This document shows, piece after piece, positions 22,701-41,163 of a stretch of DNA of 49,944 nucleotides. Source of the stretch: a virus; the IMG/VR virus record IMGVR_UViG_3300031705_000008, positions 1-49,944 of that record. The stretch is one strand, 5' to 3'. How positions within the stretch are numbered: position 1 is the stretch's first letter; each line of letters opens with the position of its first letter. A program made the position numbers and the translations under genes. The notes below the pieces were generated by a model. That model saw nothing but the letters and a program-made list of their open reading frames with translations, ran no database searches and was not told the origin of the DNA.

Positions 22701-23997
22701 AATAGGTGTTTCGTTTCCAGTAGAAAGTCCTTATAATATAGGGTATAGGACAGGTAGTTATTATGGGAGTAACTGGACTGCTGTAACTACTCAAGAGGAT
22801 ACTTACGAATATAACACCGCTTACAATCAGGCCGCCAGCACAAAGAGTTATGTTCAGAAGCCTGCGACATTCAACCCAAACACGGTATTTAAAAATAAAA
22901 TAGCAGCCTCGCAATCTAAAATTTCTGGAGAACCACAAGACGCTTGGAGTTCATTTTTATCTAGAGACTTTATAGAGATGTCTCTTTCTGAAGGAGCCAT
23001 TACAGGGCTTGTTAATTACAAGAATAGATTGTATTGCCTACAAGAGACGGCTATTGGGTTGGTCTCCATAAACACAAGAGTTTTAATTGCAGGAGAAGGT
23101 GCGGCTGCCGATATTCAGATAGTGTCAGGTACAGGAACGGTAATTGAGAGGTATGATTACTTAAGCACCCAATATGGTAGTCAGCACTACAATAACTCTA
23201 TAGTAACCCCTACGGGATTCTACACATTAGACGTAAGTAAAGAGGAGTTACTGAAGGTTGACGGTAAGTCGATTATTCCAGTATCCCTGAAGAATTCATA
23301 CAAGAGTACCATAAAGTCGCTAGTTAGAGGAAAGAATATTCCTGTTTCTTTTAATAATAATCTAGGATCTATATCTCAAGGGTTAGCTTCTGGGTATGAT
23401 CCTGAATTTAGAGAATGTCACTACACTATAACAGACTCAGAAGGTGACTCCGCAAGCTTCGTTGTCTCTGATTTGGACGGGAAGCTAGTAACAAAACTTG
23501 AATTGAAGTCACTATTAACTCCAAACGCACTACCTTATAAGAGGTACATAAACTTCATGAATAAGTTTTACGGAGTATCTCATGAAGATATGCCTGGAGA
23601 TAATGATTCACTCCAAGTATTTAATTCTGGGGTTTACCAAGACTACTCTTTTGGTGTTGTAGTAAACGATAATCCTACTGTCAATAAAGTCTTTGATACG
23701 TCGATGGTTTTTGGTCAAGGAAGTTTAGGTTCTAGTTATTTTCCTTTAGATTTCAATAGTCACACGATGACAGACTCAAGCTCTGGTGTACCTAAAGTGG
23801 GTGTTATCGGAAACCAAACAGTAACTGAAGGAGTCCTTAGAATGCCACTGAGAAGTGAAGGTCCTAGGCTTAGGGGTAACTGGATGAAGTACTCATTGGC
23901 TTATAATCAATTTTTAGTTGATGGAATAATAAGCGATGATGATGATAAAAATTTTAATATATTTGCTGTAAACACTAAGTATAGAATTTCAAGATAA
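19717..23997 (+). CDS. Large tail muzzle/stabilization-like protein (1426 aa)
   Basis: The N terminus NTFSEGMVTDLDPGYQTKQS, followed by NIRVVTNGDKSFSLENVQG, has the form of the crAss-like 'stabilization' or muzzle protein: a short motif about setting up a gene-wide beta-propeller-like body. Throughout it is beta-rich with many Gly, Ser, Thr and Asn, with no transmembrane segment. In the crAss001 structure the muzzle forms the distal part of the short tail barrel. It lies where that gene is found, after the connector proteins and before cargo genes. A TATATTTG box occurs within its last codons. Confidence 0.7.
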   Translation: MAENSKPNTFSEGMVTDLDPGYQTKQSYFEGINIRVVTNGDKSFSLENVQGPKRVTVLNTLRFGTLGSTYESGGDRYVIHGAVIVDDYMITIEATLTSTSKAWKINKYLLSAPEFVAYNLWTGLGLFSDDAGELDMESIVETETIHRIYATDGLTSLKSVNVRDSLIGLSVVDFEVFKPNIMASASIVSFSDATGGLLCGAYSYVYRFYTQDQSNYTEWSPMSRTINVPVNSVIDNDSLTIRGGTGADVSSHTIGVKISGIPVNYTNIEIARIHFTSENVSSIAIIEKGEVLSSEYEFIHSGFETETMVTGGIASTLIKNDVWNVCKSLAKADNRLYASNLDVQQLSSTYKSIDDVSVLLDTFKVKAYRALWNGNGEHSGWWGQTVPGLNEHRHKTRYNLGSPVDDATTYFKFIKYNFNTSENPRYVLGTETQGFTLDGNDGFRITFQHESYPVDRTSSQASSSFGTTEKVVTNGQDRHYNVPFKVTTTDPEYLDSVKGPINPKWDHEFRSFRRGECYRFGIILIDLHGVESFVHHIGDVKMPDGNDPNNYKLDADGTGAIPNGSVNWAPFSMTHEGSWVAQKTITAHALIPRIDVRLPESVKSIISGYRIVRAELKPEDKVMITQGLASDVLKYDTTSTDSSVSGRHGVGCLPHTRLFMEDDGNGNITNIASGAASQVANHLSSGNSGMLIDTPDVTIGGMDYELTNGYEMQLGYLMMGRGLNDYGWHGIVIYDGLSSTGGEWADGVHSQHHKYSPIKLYSDFNEYTLSGYNQESVSALSDIVNAYNSTQVHQEKNDTAYIKTVVSGEVVSGSKTGFSGDFVNAAAIDGDGTPTPISSVHSLGFFGKDKLRGNDKIGSGTKLLVSMVGNWVNTGSLKSASSGNWLIPGEDKFDEDWNLVGTSSVAKTGYTRGKWIVDLVRKTNDGSGGTNFEQYGGSNAEALQNTRYIDCSTFTPVSTFVNLVSTTSITGGDTFCDIYTTLSTFKVDSTQNVPSIGVSFPVESPYNIGYRTGSYYGSNWTAVTTQEDTYEYNTAYNQAASTKSYVQKPATFNPNTVFKNKIAASQSKISGEPQDAWSSFLSRDFIEMSLSEGAITGLVNYKNRLYCLQETAIGLVSINTRVLIAGEGAAADIQIVSGTGTVIERYDYLSTQYGSQHYNNSIVTPTGFYTLDVSKEELLKVDGKSIIPVSLKNSYKSTIKSLVRGKNIPVSFNNNLGSISQGLASGYDPEFRECHYTITDSEGDSASFVVSDLDGKLVTKLELKSLLTPNALPYKRYINFMNKFYGVSHEDMPGDNDSLQVFNSGVYQDYSFGVVVNDNPTVNKVFDTSMVFGQGSLGSSYFPLDFNSHTMTDSSSGVPKVGVIGNQTVTEGVLRMPLRSEGPRLRGNWMKYSLAYNQFLVDGIISDDDDKNFNIFAVNTKYRISR
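23958..23965 (+). promoter_or_regulatory. -7 box-like TATATTTG before the cargo genes
   Basis: The octamer lies in the last codons of the muzzle-like gene, 37 bases before the ATG at 24003. Position and match suggest a promoter for the cargo gene block. It could be a chance match in AT-rich coding sequence. Confidence 0.3.
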
Positions 23998-24002: not shown

Positions 24003-24560
24003 ATGGCTACAAAACCCGTAACTTTAAGTGACGTTGATCAAGAGAGATTCAACTCCATAAGCGCTAACAACCCAGGCCTTTCGTTTGAAGAGATAATGCA
24101 ATTCCTTCAGGTGGATGCCCCCGCTACAGCCGATGCTGGTGGTGGAGGGGCTAAGGCTGGTAATGTGGCTGCCATAGCTGGAACCGTCCTTTCTGTTGCT
24201 GAGAAATACGGAGGAGATGATAATCCTTTAAAAACCAACCGAGCCCTTAGTGGTGGGCTTAACGGTGCTGTTCAAGGTGCTGCAGCGGGAGCTAAGGTGG
24301 GTGGAGTACCTGGCGCTATCATTGGAGGTGTAGTCATGGGTGCTATCGGTGCGTCAGAAGGTAATAAAGAGCAAAAAGCTTTCGATAAGCAAGAAAAAAT
24401 AGACGATGCCGCAGAGGTTAACTATCAAGTAACGGAAAGAAATAGGGTATCAACATTGCAGTCTAATGCTGACTATTCAAAGAAAAGCCATGAGGCTACT
24501 AAGGATCTTTATGGATTTAAAGATGTGGATAATTTCGTAACAAAATACAGCAACTCATAA
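24003..24560 (+). CDS. Small internal virion-type protein with Gly/Ala hydrophobic region (185 aa)
   Basis: An N-terminal 35-residue segment (LSDVDQERFNSISANNPGLS) is followed by a Gly/Ala-rich hydrophobic region (residues about 45-120, including GAKVGGVPGAIIGGVVMGAI) and a charged helical C-terminal part (KEQKAFDKQEKIDDAAEVNY). Such a layout is typical of small ejected or membrane-inserting virion proteins. It overlaps the next gene (TAATG). A role in forming a channel during DNA ejection is inferred. Confidence 0.55.
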   Translation: MATKPVTLSDVDQERFNSISANNPGLSFEEIMQFLQVDAPATADAGGGGAKAGNVAAIAGTVLSVAEKYGGDDNPLKTNRALSGGLNGAVQGAAAGAKVGGVPGAIIGGVVMGAIGASEGNKEQKAFDKQEKIDDAAEVNYQVTERNRVSTLQSNADYSKKSHEATKDLYGFKDVDNFVTKYSNS

Positions 24561-27220
24561 TGGATAAGAAACAATTAGAAGCATATATGAATAACCCTAA
24601 TGTTAATTGGGTTTTATACAATATACTAGAAGGAGAGTCTGGGAAGATTAACGGAAATGTTAATACTGGAGGATACAATGAATCTGGAGCTAATAAGAAT
24701 GGACTGCATAGTTCCGCTTATGGATCTCAGCAGTTTATTGGAGATACCAGAAACACTATATTAAAAGACTATAAGATCGATGCTTGGGCTGATAACTTGA
24801 ATGAGCAACAGTTGGCCTCTATAGCTTTAATGCACTCCAATGGCGATCTAGACGACGTAGCGGCTGGTGATTATAGTGGATTAAACAGCACTAATTATTG
24901 GGAAGCGTTCACTAAAGACTTCACTAAGCTTACTGGAGCTAAACCAGCAGGATGGGAAAAGACATATAGCGACTTGCAATCTAATAGCGTACATGATCCT
25001 GAAGGTTCGTGGGCTAAGGTTCCTGACGCAGCTAAAGAAGGCAAGAAAGGTTTGTTTGATCGTAAATATGGCGGTAGACCTGGAGGTTTGGATGTAGAAG
25101 AAGACACCAACCCAAAAGCTGGACCTGAAGAGGAATCAACAGCTAAACCTTATAGCCCTATGGTAGGGGATGATTATGAAGTTCCGTTAACACCACAAGA
25201 GGAGAATCAGAATAAAGTAAACGAAGCAGCCTCACTTATAGGTAAGGCTAGAGAGTTTTATTTATCACAAAAGAATACTCCAATATCCAAAGAGGATGCC
25301 TTAATAGTTAAGAATGCTTTAGCGGAATATACTTTAGAGTTCAGTAAAACGCTACCTGATAGTGGGTGGGGTAGTAGAAATAGCAATCTAGGAGCTAAAA
25401 CTGAAGGATACCAAAAAGAGTATCACGAAGGAGTGTTAAGCCTTATGGACGAGCTAACTGAAGGGTTAGACGAAAACACGCCAGAAGGTTGGGGGCAGAT
25501 TGCCGCTATAAGACGTAAGGCTTTTGACTTCTCCTCCTCAGAGGCATTCGCTATTGAGGTTATGGGTGATGATGCTGGTGTTTATGGCTCTATGGATGGG
25601 TCCATGGAGTACATAATCAGCAATAGAAAGCAGTTTGATTGGGGTTTCGGTAGTTACCACGACGACGACAAAGCTCTTGACCACGCTAGGATACCTAAGA
25701 ATATCAGATTAGAATTAGAAAACAATGCTTACGTCAAGGAGGTTAGCGACAATGTAGATCACCCAAATGAAATTTTCGATGCAAGCGATAAAGCTGACAT
25801 CTTTAAGACTCCTGTATTTGCTTTAGACCCAAAGGATGTAGCTAAATACATGGCTAAAGGCTTGCAGCAGGGTTCTGTTTACAATAAGGATCAAGGTAAT
25901 GTTAGGCAGGGTATCGTAGATAAAATACGTAACCACAAATCCGAGAAGGTAGTTACTGAAACAGGGGTTGAAGACGCCCCAGAAACACCAATAACGCCAT
26001 TAAGTATAGATGTCGATGAGACTACTTCGCTTATTAAAGATAGCGTTGTAGGTTCAGACGCTATAACAACTGATGGGTTGTTAAGTCAAGGTCAAGGTGC
26101 TGAAATAGATTTAGACAACCAAAAGGTTGTGCCTCAAAAGTCTGGAGAGTCAACGACTAAAGATGTCGAGGATACTAGAGGCTCTGAGGATAAGGAATTC
26201 CAGAAGTGGATGATTGACAACCCTGATGGAAATTATGACGAATACACTAAGTACTTTGATTTAAGAGGTGATATGTCTGGCTTAGGCGAGGAATCTTTCT
26301 TAGATAAGATAGGTGGGCTATCCTCCCTTATCGGAATAGCTACTGGGGCTATGGGCTTAGGCGAGGCATTGAAAGATGTAGACATCCCTAAAGATCCCAA
26401 ATTAGGTCCTGCATTCCAGCAAAGACTAGCGGAATCTAAGCGTTTAGCTCAGCAAGGATTAACACCTTCTGAATTAGCTAAAGCTCACAATGATTTGGAT
26501 TCGTCTTACGCTACAGGTATAGAGAATATAGTTCGTGGTTCGGCAGGTAACAGAGCTCAGTTTATGGCTGGACTTGGTGGGCTTGACGTTGCTAGGCAAT
26601 CTGCTCTTATGGATATTGCTGTAGCAGACGCAGGAATGCAACGAGAGAACCAAGAGAAGTACGATAAGATGATGATGGTGAACGAGAAGTATGAAGCTGC
26701 TAGAACATCTAAATATGACCAAGCTAAATACGCAACGGAATTAGCTAACAAAGAAGCTGGAGCTGCTTTAGCTGGTAGTGCCTTGTCTATGGTTAATCAA
26801 AGTATTGGCGACAGACAAGTCAATAGATATAACAAACTAAAGACAGAACAATTAATGCGAACCATGGGTTATAAGCCCGACTCTAATGGTAACTCGATAG
26901 AAAAGCCTTTAGGTGTTGATGCTAAGACGGGAGAGAAAGTTCAAACATCTTTCAATTTCCTAGAAGGTAATGCGGATTTCGTAACCAAGGGAGGTTTACT
27001 TGATGATAACGCAAAACATAACGCTGCTCAAAGTAGTTTGCTTAACGCAGCCCCTGCAATAAATAGCATGTTCGCTCCTCCTGTCGCTCCAAAGACCCCA
27101 GAGGAATTAGCTGAAGAGGCTGATAAGATTAACGCAGTAACAACAACAAATAGCGCTATCCAAAACATGGGAAGTGCATTGACTGGATTCGGCCAATCAA
27201 CTGGTTTGATAAACTATTAA
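24560..27220 (+). CDS. Virion protein with N-terminal lysozyme-like domain (886 aa)
   Basis: The first 130 residues look like a lysozyme or transglycosylase fold: YNILEGESGKINGNVNTGG supplies candidate catalytic glutamates (Glu24, Glu26), then SAYGSQQFIGDTRNTILKDY matches the family's Gly-x-x-Gln-Phe block, and LNEQQLASIALMHSNGDL follows. The rest is a long, partly disordered cargo-like region with a short hydrophobic stretch (GGLSSLIGIATGAMGLGEAL, about residue 585) and helical repeats. The protein probably degrades peptidoglycan during DNA entry and travels in the head. Next to it lie other cargo genes. Confidence 0.6.
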   Translation: MDKKQLEAYMNNPNVNWVLYNILEGESGKINGNVNTGGYNESGANKNGLHSSAYGSQQFIGDTRNTILKDYKIDAWADNLNEQQLASIALMHSNGDLDDVAAGDYSGLNSTNYWEAFTKDFTKLTGAKPAGWEKTYSDLQSNSVHDPEGSWAKVPDAAKEGKKGLFDRKYGGRPGGLDVEEDTNPKAGPEEESTAKPYSPMVGDDYEVPLTPQEENQNKVNEAASLIGKAREFYLSQKNTPISKEDALIVKNALAEYTLEFSKTLPDSGWGSRNSNLGAKTEGYQKEYHEGVLSLMDELTEGLDENTPEGWGQIAAIRRKAFDFSSSEAFAIEVMGDDAGVYGSMDGSMEYIISNRKQFDWGFGSYHDDDKALDHARIPKNIRLELENNAYVKEVSDNVDHPNEIFDASDKADIFKTPVFALDPKDVAKYMAKGLQQGSVYNKDQGNVRQGIVDKIRNHKSEKVVTETGVEDAPETPITPLSIDVDETTSLIKDSVVGSDAITTDGLLSQGQGAEIDLDNQKVVPQKSGESTTKDVEDTRGSEDKEFQKWMIDNPDGNYDEYTKYFDLRGDMSGLGEESFLDKIGGLSSLIGIATGAMGLGEALKDVDIPKDPKLGPAFQQRLAESKRLAQQGLTPSELAKAHNDLDSSYATGIENIVRGSAGNRAQFMAGLGGLDVARQSALMDIAVADAGMQRENQEKYDKMMMVNEKYEAARTSKYDQAKYATELANKEAGAALAGSALSMVNQSIGDRQVNRYNKLKTEQLMRTMGYKPDSNGNSIEKPLGVDAKTGEKVQTSFNFLEGNADFVTKGGLLDDNAKHNAAQSSLLNAAPAINSMFAPPVAPKTPEELAEEADKINAVTTTNSAIQNMGSALTGFGQSTGLINY

Positions 27221-27230: not shown

Positions 27231-29171
27231 ATGGCTATAGATTACGGAGGAATGATGGCGTTAACTGAGGTATTTAAAGGTACATCAGAAGCTAGGAGAA
27301 ATAGGAGAGTTGAAGAAGGTAATATGCGTCAGGAAATGTTACAGCAAGAAAAGCTGGATTTCCAGAACGCAGAAATGATAGGTGCAGAGCAGGCTTCAAT
27401 AGAGACTTCTCGTACAGCGTACTTAGAGCAGATTCAGAAGATACCTCACATGAGAGATTATGTGAATAACTACTTTGACGAAAAGTCAATAGAATTTAAG
27501 GGTGTAATTAAATCATTCAATGGTAGATACTCCACCGCTATGAGTAGTGGTAAAGTGTTAGACTTTAGGGATGGATTAATGAAGAACCTAAAGAAGAGCG
27601 ATAAGTATCAATCTGGCTTAGCTTCGGCTAATAATTTAGCTAATTTCGATGCACGATATAACTCTAAAGAAACACAAGATTTAATATCAGGTCTTGACGC
27701 AAAGAATAAGCGTAAGTTTTTGGCTGGAGAGATAGAATCATTTCAGTTAGGACCTTTAAGGGCTAAGTATAGCGAGGTTGACGCAGCCGACTATTACGAA
27801 GGAGAGCGTCCTAATTTCGATAAAATATTTAGTAGCGAGTACTCTTCTATTGTTCATAATTGGGCTGTAGAAAAAGGTGATCCAAATCAAGAAAAGTTAG
27901 CGGCTCTCGCCGAAGATACATTCCCTGGAGATCCAAACGCTAAAGATAAATACCTTAAGTCATGGGCTAGAGGTGATATGGGTATGAATGGTGGTTATGA
28001 TCAGAAAATGATTGGTACTAAAGAGGCTGATCCTGTTGCTTCTGCTTCTAGGTTCCGTGACGTATTCAACCAGAAAGCTAGAGGCGGTAACGCAAACGCT
28101 ATGGGAATGCTTGCTCATATAGCAGGTCAACCCGTACTAAATACTTTCGGTGTTAAGCTTGGAGGTCCTGCTCAAAAAGGTAGGGTTAAGATTGGTGGTT
28201 ATCAAGTCTTTACTGACGCCCCTACAGCTGTACTTAAGGTTGTTCAAAAACAATTCGGAGGTTCAATGAAGGATAACAGTGATGGTACTTTTGATTTCGA
28301 ACATGTCAAGGGTGCGTTTGATGCTGATGGAGTTTACATGGACGATAGTGACGGACAAGACTTTCATAGTAACATGACTTACGCTGGAGCTCACATGGTT
28401 TCTAAGGCTACGTTTAGATTCCCTGACGGTAAGGGTGGATACGGCTTGAAAGAGCAAATAATGGGAGTTTCTGATGATAGAGATTTAGCCGCTTCAATCG
28501 CAAAAGAATGGGGAATCAAGCAGGAAGATATTACTTACGTTCCTACAATGGTTGCTACATTTGATCATGATGGTAAATTCGGTTTAGGATTTGACGATAT
28601 GAGATTTTGGGATAAGCAAGTTATGGTTGAGATGGATCCTACGGGAATCAACTTAGAGAGTATGGTAAACAATACTGGAATGGAAGAGGATATTCAGGAG
28701 TCTGCGAAGGGATCTCAGCAGTTAGCTAAGCAAGCTCAAGCTTCAGAACAAGACCTTACGGAGAACTTAAACGCTATTAGAGCACAACAACAAAAGACTG
28801 GTAATGCGTTCTATAAAGGAACTGGTGGTGGAGTCGCTAAAGATTCTACAATGGATTCGGTAGATAGAGCGTTCTCTACTGTATTCGATATTGAGATGGA
28901 AGATGCGAAGGATTCTAAAGGGATAATATACTCTATAGCTTCTGTTGCAGCTAAAAACCATAAAGGTGAATTCGTTGATACGTCGAAGAAGTACATAGTA
29001 GCGATGAATAAATTACTTAACGGTACCGATCCTAATTCGGCTAAATTTCAGGACGCTGTCGAGAGTAAGAATCCAGAGAGTATTTATGATGTCATGAATA
29101 GTATGTTCGGAGATATTGGAGATAAGGATGAAATCCTTAAGTTAGCAGAGATTTGGAGTAACTACAATTAA
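27231..29171 (+). CDS. Cargo-type internal virion protein (646 aa)
   Basis: Not recognised at family level. The N-terminal 100 residues are helical and Gln/Glu-rich (RRVEEGNMRQEMLQQEKLDF), the central region is mixed (AHIAGQPVLNTFGVKLGGPA), and the C terminus ends IGDKDEILKLAEIWSNYN. It lies between the lysozyme-bearing protein and the giant polymerase-like protein, so ejection with them is the natural guess. No membrane segment or catalytic motif was found. Confidence 0.5.
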   Translation: MAIDYGGMMALTEVFKGTSEARRNRRVEEGNMRQEMLQQEKLDFQNAEMIGAEQASIETSRTAYLEQIQKIPHMRDYVNNYFDEKSIEFKGVIKSFNGRYSTAMSSGKVLDFRDGLMKNLKKSDKYQSGLASANNLANFDARYNSKETQDLISGLDAKNKRKFLAGEIESFQLGPLRAKYSEVDAADYYEGERPNFDKIFSSEYSSIVHNWAVEKGDPNQEKLAALAEDTFPGDPNAKDKYLKSWARGDMGMNGGYDQKMIGTKEADPVASASRFRDVFNQKARGGNANAMGMLAHIAGQPVLNTFGVKLGGPAQKGRVKIGGYQVFTDAPTAVLKVVQKQFGGSMKDNSDGTFDFEHVKGAFDADGVYMDDSDGQDFHSNMTYAGAHMVSKATFRFPDGKGGYGLKEQIMGVSDDRDLAASIAKEWGIKQEDITYVPTMVATFDHDGKFGLGFDDMRFWDKQVMVEMDPTGINLESMVNNTGMEEDIQESAKGSQQLAKQAQASEQDLTENLNAIRAQQQKTGNAFYKGTGGGVAKDSTMDSVDRAFSTVFDIEMEDAKDSKGIIYSIASVAAKNHKGEFVDTSKKYIVAMNKLLNGTDPNSAKFQDAVESKNPESIYDVMNSMFGDIGDKDEILKLAEIWSNYN

Positions 29172-29181: not shown

Positions 29182-32100
29182 ATGTCAGAATTAAACGATA
29201 TTGCAGGCGAATACAGTGGTAATCAAGCAGGTATGGGTGGAAAGCCCAGCCTATTGGATTATTATGAGGAACCCTTAGAGGAAGAAGTTCCAGAGGGCGG
29301 AGGTCAAAATCCGATGTTATCTCATGAAGATGTTTCCCGTATAGCAAGAAAGGGCTCTATTTCTGCCGTCGAAAGTCAGCAAGATCCAGGAGTTTCTGGG
29401 TTGGTTGAAAGAGATAAACAAGCTATTTCAGATGTAGGCATTGATCCTGAATTAATCTTTGAAGGTAACGCTGAGAAGTTTGGTAAGAGTTTAGTCTACG
29501 GTACTGGTATTGTTGTAAATGATATTGGTAACATGATGGATTATGCGTCTATGACTTTACTTCCAGATGAGGTTAGAAAGTCTGATACATTCCTGTCTAT
29601 TACAGAGCGTCTACCTAACTTTCATCAATACGGAGACGCATTGCAAAAATGGGGTGAAGTTCATCAATCCCCTGGTTTAGATGAGTTCACTTTAGATGAT
29701 ATGTTTAAGGCTGAGTTTTGGGCTACAAGTGTAGCTCAAACATTACCTTACATAGCTACTATGGTTATACCTGGTAAGCTTGGTATAGGTGCTGCTACTA
29801 AAGCAATGACTTGGGCTGCAAGAGGTGCAGCTAAGAAAGGGTTGTTTGGCTCAGCTAAGAGATTACTAAAGACTAGATCGACTGCTGCTACAGGAAGACT
29901 TGCAGCGGCAGGCGGTAGTGAAGCTGCTGCTGGTGCGGCGGCTAACATGTCAGGTAAAGGCATAATGGGAGCTTTAGCTACAAGTGCTGTAGGTTCTGGA
30001 GAGGTGGCTTTATCTAGTTTCGGTACTGGTGTGGCTACATTCTTAGGTACGGGTACTGCGACTACCGCAGTTATTGGTGCTGGATTATCAGGGGATGTAT
30101 ATACTAGGGCGTTAGAAATGGGAATGACCGAGGAGGAAGCTCAGTCGGCTGCTCATGGAACATTCATTGATAACTCTAAATGGTTTGCGTTAAACGGATT
30201 GTCTTGGATGATTAACTTCGGGGGATTGTCTGGTAAGGCTTTTAAGTACTTTAACATGAGTAAAGGTGGAGCTGCAAATGCTGCGGTAATATCTAAAACA
30301 TTTAGTCAGAGAGTGTCTCAACACATGATGAAAGGTGTTGTAACTGGTACATTAGAGGGTACTGAGGAAATGTTCCAAGAAACCTACGAAGAATGGATTC
30401 AGGAAACGAACCTAGCAGAAGCTAGAGGTGAAGAGTTCTCGTCTTACTCGGATTTTTTCCAATCTAAAAACAATAGAAAAACATTAGGAGTTTCATTCGC
30501 TGCTGGTTTCCTTATGGGTGGTCGAGCAGGATTAATGAATAGTATTGCCGATAATGGTAGGGCTATCATTCAGAAGCGTGTATCTTTAGATGACGACATC
30601 AACATGATGGAGGGAATGAGCGATTCTCAGAGGCGTACTAGATTAAATGAGGTAGTAGAGGCTGCTGTTAGAGAAGACCAGTTAGACGGTCTAAACGGCT
30701 TCCTTGATAAGATGGCTAGTATAGGTAAAATAACTACAGAAGAACGAGCTGAGTATGATAAAGTTGTAGTTGAATACGCAGAAATCGCTTCTACTCTTCC
30801 GTTCCAAAACGAATTAACTGAAGTAGGGCAGCAGGCTGTATTTAATATTAAGATACGTCAAAATACATTAACTAAAGCATCAGCTAACTTAGAGTCTTTA
30901 AAGGGTAAAAGTATAGCAGAGGCTAAGGAAAACCTAGAAGGCGACGCATTAACTAGTAAGTTAGCTTCAATTGATGCTGAGCATAAAATAAACATGATCA
31001 ATGTTGAGAGAGAGATGTCTGAAAGTAAGACGGCTTTATCTAAAATTGTTTCAGGTAAAAAATATTCGTCTAGCAATAAGACCGCTGATCAGAATAGGCT
31101 GAAAGACATAAGTCAATACACGTCTACTGAAGAGTACCAAAAGGCAAGCGAGACTGAGCAGACGGAAATAATGCAAGAGAAGGTTAACTTGGAGGCTAGA
31201 ATAAAAGAAGACTCTTATGTTATCGAGGATGCAGCTATGTCTCAAGGAGAATTCGAGCAGTTCACTAATAAGGGTGTTGCTGAGAAGACTGAGAGAGCTA
31301 AAGTTAAGGCTGAGGCGGTTGTGGATAAAGTAGAGGGTGCTGTCAAGGGTGCGGCGGTAGCTGGAGAAAAAGGATTTAAAGGTCTTTGGTCTAAAGCTAA
31401 AACTGTAGCAGGTAAGACTGCTGACTTCTTGAAGACTAAGATTAAGGATTCTAAAGAGTCTAGGGCTATTAATAAAATAACTAGACCTCTAGAGGGTGAG
31501 CTGAAGGAAATGATAGACAAAGGAGCTACAGCTTCTGAGGTATCAAACTTCATAATGAAGAAGGTTACTCCTGAGCAATTAAAAGAAACAGGGCTAACGC
31601 AAGACGAACTTGAACTTAAAGTGTCTGGCCTTTCCGATACACTAACTAAAGCTAAGAAAGAAGATGGAGACAGTGAAAGTAAGGAAGACGAGAAAGATGA
31701 TAGCGATAAAGAGGCTACTAAAGAAGGGGAGTCTGAAAGCGAGAAGGATACATCGGAAAGCGCTGAAGCGGCTAACTCAAAAGCTGAAGTAGACGAAGAC
31801 GTTTCTACTCAAGCCAACGCTTTACAGGCGGTTATGGATAAGCTTACTGGTAAATCTAAAGAGGTTGCCGACAAGTTTATGACTACAATTAATGAAGTAG
31901 GATCAAAACTAAGCAAGGCGGATCTAGCTAGTGTGCTGAAAAAAGCAGTAAAGGGTTTGTCTTTGAGTACAGAGAAAGGTCAAGAGGCTTATATAGATAA
32001 ACTAAAAGGATTCATAAACGATAAGGTTGGAAGTATTAAAGAGAGCGTTAAAGCGCCGACAGAAGATTCAGATGGTTCACCTAAATTAGACATTGAAGGT

Positions 32101-35100
32101 AAAATCAAAGAAGCTAAAACTATTCTAGAATCTTTAATGGACGAACATAAAGGTGGGTTCTTTAAGGTTACTAAAAAAGTATCTGGATTTGTTAGTAAAG
32201 CAAACGCTAAGCTTTCTAAGATATGGAAGTCGGAAGCTGGCAACGTAAACATCCGTAAGAAGAAGTCGGAAGGTGCTACGGAAAATAAAAAGGACGATAC
32301 AATATCTCTTTTATCTTATTACGCTACAGCTAATCCTGGAGTTGAGGCTGCAATCATGGAGGCTGCGTCGAATAAATTCCCTAGCCAGCAGTTATTAATC
32401 TTACGTGAGGTAATTGATAATCACGGACAGAATGTTGTTGGATACGCTATGGGAGCTGCGGTTCTAGCAAAGAATGATGCAAACCTTGCTGACACTATAA
32501 TGCACGAATATGGTCACGTATACTTTGACATAATGAAGGATAACCCTTCGTTTATGAGGGGAGCGTCTAAGATTGTTGGATCTGATGTTTATAAAGATGT
32601 TAAGAAGTTATATGCTGAAGAGGTTCTTTACGTCTACAACGGTAACATAGTTAAGGGTGGAGAAATCTTTGACATAGTAGCATCGAATGTAGATATAACT
32701 ACTGAGTTCGGTAAGCAAGTAAAAGAAACAGTTGAAGCTATGGCTACGGCTATCATGGCTGGTGATTTAGAAACTTACGGTTCTCTAAATGCAGGATTCA
32801 TGTTGGACTTACAGAAGACTGGCGTGATAGAAATACTTCCTGATGCAGATCAGAAGCATATAATAGAAGAGGCATTCGTGTCTTCGTTGGCACCTAGGAT
32901 TTCTACAAAACTAGATGTACTGTTTGAGAAGCCAGCAGAAGTAAGAGAATATAAGTCATTCCTTAAAAGAATTACAGGTAAGGTTGTAGATTTTGTAACC
33001 CCTGAAAGTGCTAAGAAGATTTTATCTGAAGTAGATAGGAGCTTTGAGGAGTTGTCTATGGATGAGATGTACAGCCGTATAGCTGATGATTTCGCTACTG
33101 GTAGTAATGGAGCTAATCTTAATGGTATTAAGAAAAGTAAATTACATCCAACAATAGCGTCATCTATATCTATTGCTTTAAATAAAATCCCTGAAGCGGA
33201 CTTTAATAATATGTCAGCCAAAGAGGTTGCAAATCATATCATAGAGTTCGCTAAGAAGGATCAATTCTTTAATAAGAAAGGTGATAAACTTGATGTGTCA
33301 GCGGACGTTAGAGCTGAGGTTGAATTAAGAGTAGCTAAAGAAAAAGAGCGTAGAGCTGGTTTTAGTTTAGATATTACCTATAATGACAACGGTGTTGGTA
33401 GTATATATAAGGCTGCTAAAATGCAGAAGTCTAAATTAACTAAAGAAGAGCAGAACAAAGAAGCTCAAGATAGACTTGCCGAGTTAGATCAAATGGAGGG
33501 TGATGTAAATATCCTTTCCGATGATGTAGCTAGAATGAAGTCTATGGATAATTCTACAACTAAATTCCTTAGAGCTATACTGAAAATTGCAAACCCTAAA
33601 GGTAAGCGAGATGTTAAGTATGACAGAACTAACACTCAAGACTCAGCGGAAGCTAAGTTATGGGCAATGGCTAGGTCTGAAAGAAATGATACAGCAGGAT
33701 TCATAAAGAGATTCAATAACTCTACAGATAAGAATATAGTTAAGATTAGAGAGATCATGAATGAGCACATGTCTAATACGGAAGTATTGGCAGCGCTTAG
33801 TGACATGCACAACAATTATAGAAATAAAAGTTTTGAACGCATAAGGCTTAATACTATTGGTAGTAATGGTCAGCTAATAGAGAGTATGGCTGTATCTAGT
33901 AGTGAATCTAAAGTTCAGGAGTCTATAACTAGAAGAGCTAACGAAGTATTCTACGAAAAGAAAAGCGATAACCCTGCTAGGAGAGATTTAGTTCGTCAAA
34001 TACAGGCAGCTAAGAAATCCTTAGATGCAGGAAAGAAGCTATCTATGAGGGATGCTTTATCTATGGCAGTTCCTATTATGCACTTATCGGATCAAGGTTC
34101 GTACTTGGATTTATCTAAACTTACTGGAGCGAAAGTTAAGGTTGGTAATAAGATTTTAAATATTCAAGACTTCATGACTAAATTCGTTATGGATGCGAGT
34201 AGTTCTAAGAATGAAGTTTATCTTAAGAAAGGTCAGGTTCCTATAATGTTCATTCAGCCTTTAGTTAAGTCTATGGTTCCTGCCTCTAGAGGTAAGAACG
34301 CTATAAAGTCTGTTAGAGATGTTAGCGGTAAAAACTACTTAGCATTCAACATGAATAACAGCTTACTTAATAGTGTTGATTACTTGGTTGATTTAGCTAA
34401 AACACCTGAAGGTAGAGATAAGCTTAGACGTGATTATATAACAGAAAAGGAAGGAGAGAATCCTTCTGGAAATGTGTTCGTTAGAATGCTTATCGGTATG
34501 GGAGAGAATGGTCAAGCAGATCAAGCTCTTGATGTAGCTTTTGATGGTGGGATTATATCTCACAAGCCAGGCGGTAGATCTAAAGCTTCTAGATATACAG
34601 AGAAGACTAAAGATGATATTGTACAGTTTGACTTAGAGTCTTTTGCTGCTAACTGGGATTCAAGAAGTCCAGACGGAAGTATGTCTTATTACACGCAACC
34701 TATTGCAGTATTTGCAGATGGTAAGCGTAGATATTCTATATCAGCTCCAATGGCAACTACGGAGTCTAAAAAGCAAGACACAATTAACGCCTTACTTAAC
34801 GACGGACTTCATGCTGGAGGAAAGACTTACGCTGACGGTAAAGAAATTGTTGATTGGTTAGCTAAAGATGGTACGGTAGATTTAAGTAAGCACAACGAGG
34901 CTATGAAGGCTTGGTTGGAGGCTAATCCAGATCTAGTTGAAAACAATCCTAGACTGGCTAAATTTGCTGTAGTTAAGGGTGGTATGGTAGAGGTGACTGC
35001 TGAAGGTATGAAGATGATTGAAGATTACAACTTCAACTACCTATCTAACTCGTTAATGGCTCAGTCATTACTTGTTGGTAAGCATGAGCAGGCTAAATCT

Positions 35101-38100
35101 AATTCTGATTACGTTAAGAGAGCTAAAGGTGCAATCGCAAGACATGATGGATCTCTTAGAGGTACTTCTATTGAGCCTTTAATAATTAAAGATATATACA
35201 GTAAGACTGGAAACGAAGAGACTGATGCTGGTTCGTTTATACTACCCGAAGATGTTAAATACATTGAGAGTCGTGTAGGCAAAAGAATGGGTAGAGGCTG
35301 GAAGTTCGTGTACTACGGAAGCGACAAGAGAGGTGTCGGAGCAAATAATAGTGCTGCTGGTAAAGCTGATTATTACTTAAAGACTAGCGTTCAGGTTCTT
35401 ACTAAAGAATTCATAGGTGAATCTAAAGAACTTCAAGGTATAGCTGACAAGCTTAAAGCTAGAAGACAACATACTGCTGGTGGTGAAACACTTAATATGG
35501 CATTCTTTGAGTCGGCTGCTAAAAAAGCTCCATCAATCCACGGTGGCGGTAAGGGTATAGCTTGGGATGCTGATTTCGGTAAAGATTCTGAGGCTTGGAC
35601 TGAGTTGGATAACAACTTCATGATGGGTAAAAAGATGATTGGTATTGATGGTGCTAACATGGGGATTCAACTTCCTATGGATCACTTCTATGAAGAGATT
35701 GGAACGCCAGTACAGCATCACGGTTCTATAAACAATGACCTGACAGAGGCGGATAAAATCGCAGTAGATGAGATTATTGTATTAGAGGCTGACATAATGG
35801 ACGCAGCTCTTGAAGAGGCGACTAAGGATGTTACATCTAACGGTCTTAGTACACCTTCAGGAAGATTGAAGAGTAAGTCTTCTATAGTAAAGACTATGAG
35901 TAAGTCAGCTGTTACGGCTATAACGAATGGTCTAGCTAAGTTCAGACACTTATCCAATCCTAATATAAGCCAAAACCTTCCTTCAGTAGTGAAGATATAC
36001 GCTAACCAGGTTAAGAGTTTGATCAAGAAGTCCGCTAAAGTAATAACTAGTGGTACTATAGCTATACAAGGTGTCTCCGTAGGTAAAGGTCTTAACGGAT
36101 TTAAAACCAAAGACGGAGCAGATTATATAGGAGATAGATATATTGTTCAGGCTGACGGTACTATGATTAAGAGACCTCAGATACTTCCTGCTGAGGCTAT
36201 TGTTCCTGCTGGTCTTGCTGGCAAGTACATGGCTAGAGTTGATCAGGAGTTCGGAACTATTGGCGAGGCTAAAGCTCACGCTGATTCTATGGTAACTAAA
36301 AATGCAGGATCTTCTAATATAGATAATGCTGGTATTAAGATTAAAGGCTTAGATAGAAAGTTCCCAAGCGAAAGAGCAGCTAAAGAGTTCTTATACGGAA
36401 GAATAGCTGTAATGCCTGGAGGTAAACTGGTTATACTAGGTGAGGAGTTTACAGGTTCTCGTGTACCGTCTCACGGTAATCAAGCTAGGGTTGTAATGGA
36501 GATTAAAGGTTTCCAAACTAAAGTTCTAGATGAGAATGGAAATAACAGAAATAACATTATACAAGTATCTTCTGAGGTAAACAACGTATTAGGTTCCGAT
36601 CATGATGGGGATGTATTACACATGAACTTCAGATACGATAATCCTAAAAACCCTAGAGAGGTTAAGGTTAATCAATACATGGATAAGGTTATAACTCACT
36701 TCCAAAATGTTAATAAGTTTAAGCAATTGACTGCCGATTTAGGTGGGTTCGTTGCTGAAGTTGATGCTAGAATCGCTGCTGTTTCAGACGGTAAAACTGA
36801 AAGGTTTGATCAGAACTCGCCAATGGGTGCTGCTGAATTCTTCGAGGAGAATGTACAGGGTAGTTCTATGATTGGTTCTGTTGCTGCATTAAACAACGGT
36901 ATGGCTTATCTTTCTAGGTATAACGTCGGTATAGGAATGACTACTGGTATAACTATAGATGGTGATACTATACATGAGTTCAATAACGACTTAACTAAAG
37001 AGGGTAAAGAAGCTTTATCTTTCCAGAACGCAATGTTACTGAATGTCGTATTGGATAATGCAAACAACCAACAAGCAACTGCTTTAGGTATAAACCCTTC
37101 TACCGTAGCTTCGATAGCTGTACTTACTAGAATGGGATTCAAAGCTAAAGCTTTAGATAAGATATTCACTTCTGATGCTGCAAAAGCTTACGCTAAGTTT
37201 AAAGGTAAAAAGTCTATTGGAAGTAATTCTAAATGGAGCTCTTTATCTGCTTCCGAGGCTGCTATTATAGATATGAGGCTTGCTCCTGACGCAAAAGGTG
37301 CTAGACTGTTGTTATCAAAAGCGAAGGTTGGGTTAAGAGTTACTACAGATCAAATAGGAAGTATTGAAGAATCTATAAACATACTAGCATTACTAGAGTC
37401 TACGGAAGGAATTTCTAAAGATGTATATGCTATAAATAAATTAGTAGGTCAACACAAGTCTTCTGGTATAGGATCTAATAATTCCGAAGTCCAGCTTGCA
37501 ATGGAAGAGTCCGACAAGGTTCTTTCAGGAAGGTCTATACTTAGAGGTGAAGGATTAAATGAATTAGCTAAGAATCCGCTAATAAAATCATTCAAAGCTA
37601 GATCGAACAAGCTTGCATCTATATACCAATCTAATGACTTGACTGCTACACCTCACGCTGAAGCTACTCTAGATTTAATTATGAGTCTTACGGGTAATAA
37701 AAATATAGCACGTAGAGACGGTGATGAGCAATCTAAAGTAATTAAAGAATATTACTTAGGTATATTGACTAGTCACGTTCCTGCGTTTGCGAAAGCAAGC
37801 AAGTACATAGGAATGACGAACGAAAGAGTTCCTAAGTTGGCTGTATCTATTCTACACAAAAAGGTTGTGGCTCAAATGGAAGAGGTGATGCGTAAAGGTC
37901 ACAATGACTTTATTGCTGCCGTTCAATTGGATGTTAGAGAAACATTCAAAGGAGTAGACCAATATTCAATATCTCCGAATAGAGAGTATATAAATGAGTA
38001 TACTACAGATCAAGAATTGGATGCTATAAGTGAAGGGTTCGCTAACTTAAGTGAAGAGCTTAGGTCGGATATATTGAATTTAGACTTCCTGCTTAATGAA

Positions 38101-41100
38101 GGTGGAATGCACTCTAGTTCTATTCAGCCATTAATGGATTCAGATACTTTAGTTTCTATTAGTAAATCAATAGATTCTGTTCATCAAAACTTGATCAACG
38201 AAAACAGCGGAATGACTTCTGCGGTTGAGGTTGCAGACCACTTGATTTTATCTAATCCAGACATTGTGACTACAGGAATGTACATACACAAGAATGGATC
38301 TGTAGACGCTAGTAATGGTTCATTATCTAAAGCGCTTAAAGCTAAAAGAGTTGTTAGCTCTATTCAGCGTGACGGTATAATATCCAATAAACCTCACTTC
38401 ATTAAGGTTATAAAAAATCTACCTAAAGGAGGTAAAGAGGTGCGTATGTTTAAGTACAAACCAATCCCTACTAAGCTGTACAAAGAACTTAGAGCGAAGC
38501 ACAAGAACGATAATAGTTTCCTTGCTGCATTACAACTTGAAGGTGTGTATAGAGATATGGGTGAAACCACATCTCCTGACGGAGGAAAGAAAGAGAGCGC
38601 TGCTCTTCTTAATTACAAGAAAATGAAGAGAGCTGCTGAAGCTAATAACTCCTCTCCTTTAATTAATATGAAAAAACTGAAGTTCTCTAACACTAAAACT
38701 GGAGGAGAATCTGGTTTCAGTAATAGAGCTGAGGCTTTTAACTTTGATGAGTACATACAGGACAAAGGGCATCGAGCCCAATCAGTCGAAGACAGCCCCA
38801 AACTCAAGGAGGCTTTAGAAGAACTCTATAACAAGTATATTGCAAATTTTAATTTAGCCCAGGAGTTTGATAAGACTATCATTCAAACTGGGAAGATTAA
38901 AACTCTTTCTAAAGAACGCTTGATAGATTACGCTAGGTTATTCCAGAGACTGGATCCTAGTGCGGTTTCGTCTTCTCACAGAGCTGTTGTTCTTGAGATG
39001 GCACACAGAGCTGCCGACGAACAGAAAGCCTCTAGGAATGGAAAAGAATGGAAGGATACGGGAGACATCTCTTGGCTTCATTCATGGTTTGGTTCTAATA
39101 ACATCCCTGGTCATAGACCTGAAATCCAAAGACTAGTTAGGTTAATGGAACAAGAGTATGATATTTTTATGGCGGAGAATGTTTCGTTCCAGAAAAAACT
39201 AGACAACCTTACTAAGGATTTAATCAGAGAGAGAATGCCTGTAGTTATGGGTATTGAAGGTACTGGTGAAGCTTTTGTTCAGGAAAAACATTGGACTGGT
39301 AGTCTTTCTGAAGAGAAAAATCAAGCCCTGTACGCTAACATGTACTCTAAAAAGGATGGAGAGTTAGTTCTAAAGAATAGAGCTGAGTTCTTGAAGTCTA
39401 AACCAGGGAAAGCAGAGAGAGCGTTCTACGAGTTCTTTGTTGAGACCACAAACAAGTACGGTAAGATTAGTGCTGAAAGCTTGGGCGAGCGATGGAAGAC
39501 AGGATATATTCCTCACCTTCAGGTAGGACTTAAAGAGTCTATTCGTCAGAGAGGATTATTTGGATTGTACGACTATATGCTTCAAGGAACTGGAGATATA
39601 GATATGGTTAAGGTTAAAGGTATAAACCCAATGACTGGGAAGACGCAAACTAAATCTTTCCATGATTGGAAGTATTTGTATTACGAAGCTAAAGGCGTAA
39701 AGAATAAGAAATGGTATAAAGCCTTAACTGTAAAGCAATTTAAAGCAACAGCAGATCTTGACGTTATAAGACGAAGAGCAGAAGGGTTGGCTAAGACAGG
39801 GAAGCACGAGGATGGTTCTACAATATCTAGAAGTGAACAAGAGGTTCATGGAATGATGGGGACTAGCATGATGTCTAGGTTTGCTAAATCTAGAGGAGTT
39901 AAGTCTGCTATGTTCGGTTCTGCCGATCTTGGTAGGGCTTTATCTCAATACGTTAATACAACAATGTTCGTGTACGGTAATGAGAACTTTAAAGGGTTCA
40001 GAGAAATGCAACCTTTACTTGATGGAGTTATAAAACTAAATGAAACTAAAGGTAACACCAACGCTGTCAGGTACTTAGAGAATGTTTGGAAGAAAGGGTT
40101 CTACAATTTAGGAGAGTCTCAGACTGGATTAGGTAGACTTACAGATGGAGCTATACATAAGTTGGTTAAACTTACAAGGATTAGATTCTTATCGTTAAGT
40201 CTCTCTGGAGGTCTTGGTAATTTGGTTGTAGGTAAATACAATGAATACAGATCTAAGGGTGGAAGGCAAGTTATCGTCGGAGAGAAGAGGTACTGGACTG
40301 AGAGAAAGAAGTCTTGGGCTTTAATTAAAGGTAACTTAAATCCAGAATCTTTTGCTTATGACTTAATACAGGGTAATGACAGTAATGGTATAAACCAATT
40401 ACTAATGTCTCCTTATATAATGTCAGAACACTACATTCAAGGAGCTGGTCTTGTAGGTCAATTCACTAAAGAAGAATGGGCAAGAATAGGTGCTGACGGC
40501 TCCGTTCCAGCAGACCTAAAAGAGCGAGTTGATTTGTACGTTGAAAACGTAGTAAGACAACAAGGTTACGGTTACTCTAGGGTTGATCAGATTGGTATTG
40601 CTACTTACTCTTGGGGTAAGGCTATAATGCAATTCAAGAAGTGGATGCCTACCGCTTTAGCTGAAAGATTCCAACAAGAAACTATAGATAGGTTCGGTGA
40701 AATGAGAACTGGTAGTAATATGGAAGCATTCAAACTTGGAGCTGAGTTAACTAGAGATGTTATGGCTGGAGATATTAGCATGGAGAAATTCATGGAAAAA
40801 TACAGGGTATTGCCTGAACATAAAAAAGAAGCAATCAAAACCTTCTATAGAGGTATGAGCGTCGTTAGTGGTTTGACTATGTTATCAATGTTATTCGGTG
40901 AATCGGATGATGATGAGGCTATTGCATTCTGTAAGTGGGCTGACTCTTCTGTTGATGATATAATGTTTATGACTGATCCTAGAAGGATGAAACACATGTT
41001 AGAGCCTGCGTCTTGGCAGATAGTTGAGTCTGGTACAACAATGATTGCTGGAGCTGCGACACTTGATAAAGATCAATTCAAAGGTGGATTGGCGGGTATT

Positions 41101-41163
41101 AGCTGGACTGCTTCTCAAGTATTAAATACTAGCGAGACAGCCGTTAAGAGTATAGAAAATTAA
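29182..41163 (+). CDS. Giant virion RNA polymerase-like protein with metallopeptidase motif (3993 aa)
   Basis: Segments in order. Residues 180-360 contain Gly/Ala-rich hydrophobic stretches (AQTLPYIATMVIPGKLGIGA; ALNGLSWMINFGGLSGK), likely membrane-active. About 826-880 is a Lys/Glu/Ser low-complexity stretch. Residues 1108-1112 are HEYGH, a zincin motif, with Glu1229/1230 (HIIEEAFVSSL) as possible third ligand. Residues 2014-2069 (TDAGSFILPEDVKYIESRVG, then ADYYLKTSVQVLT) look like the first double-psi barrel. Arg2427-x-Pro-x-x-His2431 and DHDGD at 2473-2477 match the catalytic second barrel of two-barrel RNA polymerases, known in virions of crAss-like phages. The C terminus has a hydrophobic helix near 3893. 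It probably enters the host and transcribes early genes. Alternatives are unlikely for the DHDGD part. Confidence 0.8.
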   Translation: MSELNDIAGEYSGNQAGMGGKPSLLDYYEEPLEEEVPEGGGQNPMLSHEDVSRIARKGSISAVESQQDPGVSGLVERDKQAISDVGIDPELIFEGNAEKFGKSLVYGTGIVVNDIGNMMDYASMTLLPDEVRKSDTFLSITERLPNFHQYGDALQKWGEVHQSPGLDEFTLDDMFKAEFWATSVAQTLPYIATMVIPGKLGIGAATKAMTWAARGAAKKGLFGSAKRLLKTRSTAATGRLAAAGGSEAAAGAAANMSGKGIMGALATSAVGSGEVALSSFGTGVATFLGTGTATTAVIGAGLSGDVYTRALEMGMTEEEAQSAAHGTFIDNSKWFALNGLSWMINFGGLSGKAFKYFNMSKGGAANAAVISKTFSQRVSQHMMKGVVTGTLEGTEEMFQETYEEWIQETNLAEARGEEFSSYSDFFQSKNNRKTLGVSFAAGFLMGGRAGLMNSIADNGRAIIQKRVSLDDDINMMEGMSDSQRRTRLNEVVEAAVREDQLDGLNGFLDKMASIGKITTEERAEYDKVVVEYAEIASTLPFQNELTEVGQQAVFNIKIRQNTLTKASANLESLKGKSIAEAKENLEGDALTSKLASIDAEHKINMINVEREMSESKTALSKIVSGKKYSSSNKTADQNRLKDISQYTSTEEYQKASETEQTEIMQEKVNLEARIKEDSYVIEDAAMSQGEFEQFTNKGVAEKTERAKVKAEAVVDKVEGAVKGAAVAGEKGFKGLWSKAKTVAGKTADFLKTKIKDSKESRAINKITRPLEGELKEMIDKGATASEVSNFIMKKVTPEQLKETGLTQDELELKVSGLSDTLTKAKKEDGDSESKEDEKDDSDKEATKEGESESEKDTSESAEAANSKAEVDEDVSTQANALQAVMDKLTGKSKEVADKFMTTINEVGSKLSKADLASVLKKAVKGLSLSTEKGQEAYIDKLKGFINDKVGSIKESVKAPTEDSDGSPKLDIEGKIKEAKTILESLMDEHKGGFFKVTKKVSGFVSKANAKLSKIWKSEAGNVNIRKKKSEGATENKKDDTISLLSYYATANPGVEAAIMEAASNKFPSQQLLILREVIDNHGQNVVGYAMGAAVLAKNDANLADTIMHEYGHVYFDIMKDNPSFMRGASKIVGSDVYKDVKKLYAEEVLYVYNGNIVKGGEIFDIVASNVDITTEFGKQVKETVEAMATAIMAGDLETYGSLNAGFMLDLQKTGVIEILPDADQKHIIEEAFVSSLAPRISTKLDVLFEKPAEVREYKSFLKRITGKVVDFVTPESAKKILSEVDRSFEELSMDEMYSRIADDFATGSNGANLNGIKKSKLHPTIASSISIALNKIPEADFNNMSAKEVANHIIEFAKKDQFFNKKGDKLDVSADVRAEVELRVAKEKERRAGFSLDITYNDNGVGSIYKAAKMQKSKLTKEEQNKEAQDRLAELDQMEGDVNILSDDVARMKSMDNSTTKFLRAILKIANPKGKRDVKYDRTNTQDSAEAKLWAMARSERNDTAGFIKRFNNSTDKNIVKIREIMNEHMSNTEVLAALSDMHNNYRNKSFERIRLNTIGSNGQLIESMAVSSSESKVQESITRRANEVFYEKKSDNPARRDLVRQIQAAKKSLDAGKKLSMRDALSMAVPIMHLSDQGSYLDLSKLTGAKVKVGNKILNIQDFMTKFVMDASSSKNEVYLKKGQVPIMFIQPLVKSMVPASRGKNAIKSVRDVSGKNYLAFNMNNSLLNSVDYLVDLAKTPEGRDKLRRDYITEKEGENPSGNVFVRMLIGMGENGQADQALDVAFDGGIISHKPGGRSKASRYTEKTKDDIVQFDLESFAANWDSRSPDGSMSYYTQPIAVFADGKRRYSISAPMATTESKKQDTINALLNDGLHAGGKTYADGKEIVDWLAKDGTVDLSKHNEAMKAWLEANPDLVENNPRLAKFAVVKGGMVEVTAEGMKMIEDYNFNYLSNSLMAQSLLVGKHEQAKSNSDYVKRAKGAIARHDGSLRGTSIEPLIIKDIYSKTGNEETDAGSFILPEDVKYIESRVGKRMGRGWKFVYYGSDKRGVGANNSAAGKADYYLKTSVQVLTKEFIGESKELQGIADKLKARRQHTAGGETLNMAFFESAAKKAPSIHGGGKGIAWDADFGKDSEAWTELDNNFMMGKKMIGIDGANMGIQLPMDHFYEEIGTPVQHHGSINNDLTEADKIAVDEIIVLEADIMDAALEEATKDVTSNGLSTPSGRLKSKSSIVKTMSKSAVTAITNGLAKFRHLSNPNISQNLPSVVKIYANQVKSLIKKSAKVITSGTIAIQGVSVGKGLNGFKTKDGADYIGDRYIVQADGTMIKRPQILPAEAIVPAGLAGKYMARVDQEFGTIGEAKAHADSMVTKNAGSSNIDNAGIKIKGLDRKFPSERAAKEFLYGRIAVMPGGKLVILGEEFTGSRVPSHGNQARVVMEIKGFQTKVLDENGNNRNNIIQVSSEVNNVLGSDHDGDVLHMNFRYDNPKNPREVKVNQYMDKVITHFQNVNKFKQLTADLGGFVAEVDARIAAVSDGKTERFDQNSPMGAAEFFEENVQGSSMIGSVAALNNGMAYLSRYNVGIGMTTGITIDGDTIHEFNNDLTKEGKEALSFQNAMLLNVVLDNANNQQATALGINPSTVASIAVLTRMGFKAKALDKIFTSDAAKAYAKFKGKKSIGSNSKWSSLSASEAAIIDMRLAPDAKGARLLLSKAKVGLRVTTDQIGSIEESINILALLESTEGISKDVYAINKLVGQHKSSGIGSNNSEVQLAMEESDKVLSGRSILRGEGLNELAKNPLIKSFKARSNKLASIYQSNDLTATPHAEATLDLIMSLTGNKNIARRDGDEQSKVIKEYYLGILTSHVPAFAKASKYIGMTNERVPKLAVSILHKKVVAQMEEVMRKGHNDFIAAVQLDVRETFKGVDQYSISPNREYINEYTTDQELDAISEGFANLSEELRSDILNLDFLLNEGGMHSSSIQPLMDSDTLVSISKSIDSVHQNLINENSGMTSAVEVADHLILSNPDIVTTGMYIHKNGSVDASNGSLSKALKAKRVVSSIQRDGIISNKPHFIKVIKNLPKGGKEVRMFKYKPIPTKLYKELRAKHKNDNSFLAALQLEGVYRDMGETTSPDGGKKESAALLNYKKMKRAAEANNSSPLINMKKLKFSNTKTGGESGFSNRAEAFNFDEYIQDKGHRAQSVEDSPKLKEALEELYNKYIANFNLAQEFDKTIIQTGKIKTLSKERLIDYARLFQRLDPSAVSSSHRAVVLEMAHRAADEQKASRNGKEWKDTGDISWLHSWFGSNNIPGHRPEIQRLVRLMEQEYDIFMAENVSFQKKLDNLTKDLIRERMPVVMGIEGTGEAFVQEKHWTGSLSEEKNQALYANMYSKKDGELVLKNRAEFLKSKPGKAERAFYEFFVETTNKYGKISAESLGERWKTGYIPHLQVGLKESIRQRGLFGLYDYMLQGTGDIDMVKVKGINPMTGKTQTKSFHDWKYLYYEAKGVKNKKWYKALTVKQFKATADLDVIRRRAEGLAKTGKHEDGSTISRSEQEVHGMMGTSMMSRFAKSRGVKSAMFGSADLGRALSQYVNTTMFVYGNENFKGFREMQPLLDGVIKLNETKGNTNAVRYLENVWKKGFYNLGESQTGLGRLTDGAIHKLVKLTRIRFLSLSLSGGLGNLVVGKYNEYRSKGGRQVIVGEKRYWTERKKSWALIKGNLNPESFAYDLIQGNDSNGINQLLMSPYIMSEHYIQGAGLVGQFTKEEWARIGADGSVPADLKERVDLYVENVVRQQGYGYSRVDQIGIATYSWGKAIMQFKKWMPTALAERFQQETIDRFGEMRTGSNMEAFKLGAELTRDVMAGDISMEKFMEKYRVLPEHKKEAIKTFYRGMSVVSGLTMLSMLFGESDDDEAIAFCKWADSSVDDIMFMTDPRRMKHMLEPASWQIVESGTTMIAGAATLDKDQFKGGLAGISWTASQVLNTSETAVKSIEN

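Follow-up and report, generated by a model that had tools for sequence, protein, structure and literature searches.

RNA polymerases (RNAPs) of giant size, reaching ~6000 amino acids, are a hallmark of the Crassvirales (PMC10136315). In the Cellulophaga phage phi14:2, an N-terminal part, the polymerase, and a C-terminal part are encoded in this order by three adjacent genes (gp67, gp66, and gp65; 1797, 2180, and 1421 amino acids, respectively), whose records are annotated from MS/MS proteomics. The Bacteroides phage crAss001 also uses three proteins, two of which are encoded on the opposite strand, and these proteins (gp47, gp49, and the polymerase homolog gp50) have been detected in virions by mass spectrometry (PMC10172136). 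The giant RNAPs of the Suoliviridae (cr10_1 gp32, 4460 amino acids; cr118_1, 4946 amino acids; cr53_1 gp57; cr6_1 gp36) carry both an HExxH and a DxDxD motif in single chains of 4400 to 4946 amino acids, wherein HExxH lies about 1470 to 1540 residues before DxDxD. Among the Suoliviridae genomes examined, a second large gene follows this gene in cr6_1, cr53_1, and cr118_1. The polymerase genes of cr6_1 and cr53_1 contain 57 and 40 in-frame stops, respectively, under translation table 11, which is consistent with the TAG reassignment reported for some Crassvirales.

Two further systems are relevant. The virion polymerase of phage N4 is of the single-subunit, T7-like type and not of the two-barrel type. 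N4-like virion RNAPs are giant, injected enzymes, all of which were described by Iyer and colleagues as fused to an HExxH metallopeptidase (PMC5512222). In the Thermus phage P23-45, gp96 (5002 amino acids) combines a two-barrel RNAP, a metallopeptidase, and transmembrane domains in one virion chain (PMC10770324).

The window analyzed here, meaning the whole IMG/VR virus record of 49,944 bases, encodes a 3993-residue chain that we place among the crAss-like giant virion RNAPs as a new, divergent, and fully fused member; it does not represent a novel type of system. The chain is predicted to have the two-barrel fold of phi14:2 gp66 and matches it in colinear segments, including the TDA and YLK segments and the DxDxD loop, and its modules follow the order of the three phi14:2 genes. 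However, a single gene encodes what phi14:2 and crAss001 distribute over three. With the Suoliviridae RNAPs it shares the presence of HExxH ahead of the catalytic loop in one chain, as well as a gene position after the muzzle and cargo genes. Those RNAPs are 400 to 950 amino acids longer, have DFDID or DFDVD as the loop sequence, and have the C-terminal counterpart in a separate adjacent gene (assigned by homology for cr118_1). The polymerase genes of the window family need no recoding, unlike cr6_1 gp36 and cr53_1 gp57. N4-like virion RNAPs work in a similar way but do not belong to the same family as the window chain, and P23-45 differs from the window phage in being long-tailed, with gp96 serving as the tape measure protein and its RNAP occupying the N-terminal portion.

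The earlier note on this DNA had regarded the size of the chain and its union of protease and polymerase as unusual. The size is not new because giant Crassvirales RNAPs have already been described (PMC10136315), and the union already occurs in cr10_1, cr118_1, cr53_1, and cr6_1. For a giant chain that joins an RNAP to metallopeptidase and membrane parts, P23-45 gp96, N4, and the Suoliviridae provide precedents, and we dropped the proposal of exceptional size or fusion in light of the Suoliviridae chains and of published examples (PMC10136315, PMC5512222, PMC10770324). As judged from sequence profiles, the distinctive point is that the C-terminal part matches a protein encoded separately in phi14:2, crAss001, and cr118_1. 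We assign a probability of roughly 0.88 to the explanation as a whole, namely that this is an injected crAss-like virion RNAP whose modules have been fused in one chain.

Gene neighborhood and relatives of the chain

The chain is encoded by a single ORF at positions 29,182 to 41,163 that is open throughout, with no internal stop. This ORF and all other features located below are on the plus strand of the window, a 49.9-kb contig that is probably a genome fragment. Upstream and on the same strand lie crAss-like genes for the terminase large subunit (TerL; 10,034–11,863; phrog_6681, and by comparison with references), the portal protein (11,863–14,031; Pfam P22_portal, phrog_6547), the major capsid protein (MCP; 15,161–16,633; Pfam Crass_capsid, 2.2e-32), a tail ring protein resembling crAss001 gp43 and cr10_1 gp36 (19,115–19,714), and a muzzle protein resembling crAss001 gp44 and phi14:2 gp71 (19,717–23,997), the last two identified by sequence comparison. 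These are followed by a gene for a 185-amino-acid protein (24,003–24,560) that resembles part of the crAss001 cargo protein C1, gp45 (phmmer E 9e-7 among 22 targets). The crAss001 C1 protein, at 842 amino acids, is far longer. Two proteins of 886 and 646 amino acids (24,560–27,220 and 27,231–29,171) precede the polymerase gene; neither recognizably resembles any of the crAss-like proteins used for comparison, and the two may be the other ejection proteins. At the far end of the window, a tail fiber gene (48,513–49,943; phrog_24456, 3e-29) runs past the end of the contig.

Among the references compared, TerL, portal, and MCP are closest to those of the Suoliviridae phage cr10_1, at 24 to 29% identity. 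Relatives of the terminase number in the hundreds in IMG/VR, and distant matches (<60% identity) occur in 207 annotated phages, many of which are Crassvirales. Because the window carries TerL, portal, capsid, ring, and muzzle genes of crAss-like type, we read the chain as a virion RNAP belonging to a divergent, Crassvirales-like phage. The order of ring, muzzle, cargo (C1), and polymerase genes is the same as in crAss001, and thus the giant chain sits where crAss001 and phi14:2 encode virion proteins.

An alignment scan of viral contigs recovered 31 loci, and polymerase relatives were present in nine of the 22 full records that underlay the terminase matches. After removal of duplicates, 22 distinct full-length chains of 3806 to 4100 amino acids remained among the IMG/VR relatives. 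Overall identity to the window chain is about 50% for a near group and about 25% for a far group. Neither Pfam nor PHROGs yielded a useful family for the whole chain or its parts. Sequence searches of the PDB, whether with one sequence or with profiles, brought up nothing relevant, and a scan of bacterial and archaeal genomes found no relatives of the chain and hence pointed to no host. When the polymerase, N-terminal, and C-terminal parts were compared by tblastn with 50,697 annotated phage records, none of them had a match. The crAss-like virion polymerases are thus extended by a family that has no tblastn relative in that collection.

The polymerase core and its relation to phi14:2 gp66

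The earlier note had drawn attention to several short motifs, and a motif search of the chain places HEYGH at residues 1108 to 1112, TDAGSF from residue 2014, YYLKTSV at residues 2064 to 2070, and DHDGD at residues 2473 to 2477, all as it had claimed. A further motif that had been given as RxPxxH does occupy residues 2427 to 2431 (36,460–36,474), but its letters are RVPSH, and the pattern is RxPxH; the R and P are common to phi14:2 and crAss001. By themselves, HExxH and DxDGD are suggestive only, because composition-preserving shuffles of the chain also yield them (6% and 6.5% of shuffles, respectively, and 0.4% for both together). We accept the motifs as real because they are conserved across relatives. 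Both are kept in all 22 full-length relatives, with HExxH in the form HEYGGH in one of them (L134), at a distance of 1275 to 1394 residues from each other, and DxDGD is present in 27 of 28 aligned relatives, the remaining one being truncated.

An AlphaFold2 model of residues 1690 to 2850 (34,249–37,731), built on a 28-sequence alignment, reached a pLDDT of 80.6 and a pTM of 0.80. Its top PDB match by Foldseek is 6VR4, the phi14:2 virion RNAP (E 4.8e-22), followed by QDE-1 (E about 1e-5), and VIA-align to 6VR4 gives a Z score of 18.0 with 945 of the 1161 model residues aligned. In BFVD, too, crAss-like RNAPs and other giant proteins of crAss-like phages, those of cr10_1 and phi14:2 included, account for many of the best fold matches. 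P23-45 gp96 is not the closest fold match to this core.

The earlier note had proposed two double-psi barrels (DPBBs) in one chain, and the model matches 6VR4 over 945 residues. For the second, beta′-like barrel (DPBB-A; residues 2286–2515; 36,037–36,726), VIA-align overlays the large subunits of numerous Pol I and Pol II enzymes on the corresponding model residues 597 to 826, with the tightest rows superposing on Rpb1 residues 357 to 526 or similar at 2.5 to 2.8 Å over about 100 residues. This Rpb1 stretch is the beta′-type barrel. The DHDGD sequence (36,598–36,612), whose aspartates are predicted to bind the catalytic metal, falls within the Rpb1-matching DPBB stretch and aligns with DFDID at position 1361 of the phi14:2 protein and DFDVD at position 1483 of the crAss001 protein. 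The loop thus reads DFDID in phi14:2 versus D[HL]DGD in the window family, and identity is very low.

The first, beta-like barrel (DPBB-B), part of which spans residues 2014 to 2070 (35,221–35,391), is assigned by alignment to phi14:2, wherein TDAGSFILP aligns to TDAQAWITP and YYLKTSVQVL to TYLKYSQAVL. This segment includes D2015, K2041, and K2067, which are invariant in all 28 aligned relatives, and, by analogy with known two-barrel polymerases, the two lysines are candidates for the catalytic lysines of the barrel.

Sequence profiles lead to the same family. A profile of the polymerase region (A5) matches crAss001 gp50 (E 1e-9) and phi14:2 gp66 (E 1e-7), both in colinear pieces, and a gp50-like protein of cr85_1 (E 2.7e-16); the best of 300 shuffled controls scored E 8e-3. 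The core thus groups with phi14:2 gp66 both by its predicted structure and by sequence profiles, the motifs correspond, and DHDGD lies within the beta′ barrel, in line with the polymerase reading of the earlier note. On this evidence, the polymerase part is a real but distant relative of the phi14:2-type virion RNAPs.

Giant virion proteins are common, and a tape-measure or other structural protein in which HExxH and DxDGD arose by coincidence would be in keeping with the frequency at which each motif appears in shuffled chains. The predicted two-barrel fold that matches 6VR4, the homology to two known RNAP subunits, and the retention of both motifs in the full-length relatives make this reading exceedingly improbable.

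The HExxH domain and its candidate roles

A metallopeptidase-like domain is placed at residues 1041 to 1290 (32,302–33,051). Invariant in an alignment of 29 sequences are H1108, E1109, and H1112 of HEYGH (32,503–32,517), which is predicted to form the zinc-binding helix, together with Y1144, Q1224, E1229, and E1230. The last three belong to QKHIIEE (residues 1224–1230; 32,851–32,871), which sits in a helix of the structural model with a pLDDT of about 80 to 90, and either E1229 or E1230 may provide the third zinc ligand. One divergent relative (L134) has HEYGGH, an HExxxH sequence, in place of HExxH, and this variant is known among the peptidases of polyvalent proteins (PMC5512222).

The zincin label of the earlier note agrees with the invariant H, E, H, E, and E residues, but the structural model is of low quality and resembles none of the known folds. 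The model of the peptidase segment has a pLDDT of 57.6, which stays under 50 up to segment residue 103; in a zincin, a three-stranded sheet would precede the HExxH helix. In a fold search this low-confidence model had no significant PDB match; the low-scoring matches were mostly helical, with no zincin among the matches listed. Because the model is poor, this outcome proves nothing.

Other crAss-like phages also have HExxH domains in their polymerase blocks, where invariant H, E, and H residues are followed by an EE..AE.FR motif. In a profile alignment, the window-family domain matches these weakly (E 9e-4, probability 23%). In crAss001, HExxH is located near the end of gp47; in phi14:2, gp66 and gp67 have none, and gp65 has one at position 245. 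We consider the domain probably to be a zinc peptidase of the type fused to N4-like virion RNAPs, and its conserved residues suggest that it may be active.

What such an activity would serve is a question on which two proposals differ. The first, which would add to the injected-polymerase reading and is no alternative to it, is that an active HExxH zinc peptidase cuts the linkers to release ejection, polymerase, and C-terminal pieces. In accord with this, HExxH and the downstream Q and EE residues do not vary in the 29 sequences, the domain recurs with its H, E, H, and EE residues alongside the RNAP in further crAss-like phages, fast-changing linkers separate the modules, and HExxH domains in the polyvalent proteins of phages have been proposed to act by autoproteolysis (PMC5512222). 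However, the N4 virion RNAP enters the particle uncut although it carries an HExxH metallopeptidase (PMC5512222), a conserved cleavage site was not detected, and the peptidase model has low confidence and no PDB match. We therefore regard self-processing as unlikely. Slightly more doubtful still is the specific version in which a one-gene polyprotein is stored intact and cut by its own peptidase, during or after injection, into pieces like those of phi14:2 and crAss001.

The second proposal is that the domain is not a processing enzyme, and instead either acts on a host protein as an injected, protein-cutting effector or has a structural part in packaging. An effector role has been raised for such domains, and the N4 region that holds HExxH is needed for encapsidation (PMC5512222). 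In one crAss-like relative, most likely the gp47-like protein of cr85_1, an ART-PolyVal domain (Pfam, 2.4e-13) follows the HExxH domain. This ADP-ribosyltransferase domain would make the crAss-like virion protein a typical polyvalent protein. That H, E, H, and EE are so strictly conserved speaks against a dead domain, and nothing ties the HExxH domain to a particular substrate. We hold this second proposal as a tentative possibility, somewhat short of even odds. The invariant HExxH near the polymerase makes the role of metallopeptidases in injected phage polymerases open to mutation and mass spectrometry.

Modules, linkers, and proposed working of the fused chain

Under the injected-polymerase reading, the chain would be stored in the phage head as a cargo protein, pushed through the tail in a partly unfolded state, and refolded in the host cell, where it would transcribe early phage genes until the host enzyme takes over. 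Packaging into the particle, ejection, and early transcription are suggested by the gene position and by the relatives. Catalysis would take place between the two double-psi barrels, with DHDGD of the beta′-like barrel holding Mg2+ and the beta-like barrel supplying D2015, K2041, and K2067.

Conserved modules (residues 1–470, 1041–1290, about 1690–2850, and 3181–3993) are connected by variable linkers at about residues 701 to 1040, 1291 to 1690, and 2851 to 3180, the first of which is charged (31,282–32,301) and has 29 to 33% identity to near relatives. The modules would correspond in order to phi14:2 gp67, gp66, and gp65 and to crAss001 gp47, gp50, and gp49. Profile matches show this colinearity with the phi14:2 and crAss001 proteins for the polymerase and C-terminal parts. 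Modules that occupy two or three genes elsewhere in crAss-like phages are thus fused into one conserved chain in the window family, and a fusion in this order indicates the parts that work as a unit.

The C-terminal conserved block (residues 3181–3993; 38,722–41,160) is the counterpart of the C-terminal regions of phi14:2 gp65 and crAss001 gp49. Its profile (A4) matches phi14:2 gp65 at residues 987 to 1319 (E 6e-7), and also crAss001 gp49, the cr85_1 counterpart of gp49, and the product of the gene after the cr118_1 polymerase. Gly, Ala, Ser, and Thr abound in the N-terminal conserved block (residues 80–470; 29,419–30,591), where they make up 105 of residues 201 to 400; this block is probably the delivery or packaging end. 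A profile of this block matches phi14:2 gp67 at residues 155 to 215 weakly (i-E 5e-4 to 7e-3), and its equivalence to gp67 and gp47 is tentative.

The earlier note had also described the ends as hydrophobic and membrane-active, but their hydrophobicity is weaker than it had claimed. In the window chain, no 19-residue Kyte–Doolittle window exceeds 1.6, the usual transmembrane threshold; the best mean is 1.34 (residues 284–302), with 1.11 near the C-terminus. However, a hydrophobic segment close to the C-terminus exceeds 1.6 in 15 of the 22 relatives, and membrane-active ends are possible.

In comparisons with three near relatives, the N-terminal (64–65%) and C-terminal (64–66%) blocks have the highest identity, which is intermediate in the polymerase (44–63%) and peptidase (47–57%) regions, and lowest in the three linkers (29–39%). 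The N-terminal block, for example, is 64% identical to that of one relative (L117) and is among the most conserved blocks. Such conservation suggests that the two terminal blocks are under strong constraint for a role in delivery or packaging. Among the near relatives, the noncatalytic ends (29,182–30,591 and 38,722–41,160) are conserved at least as well as the catalytic core.
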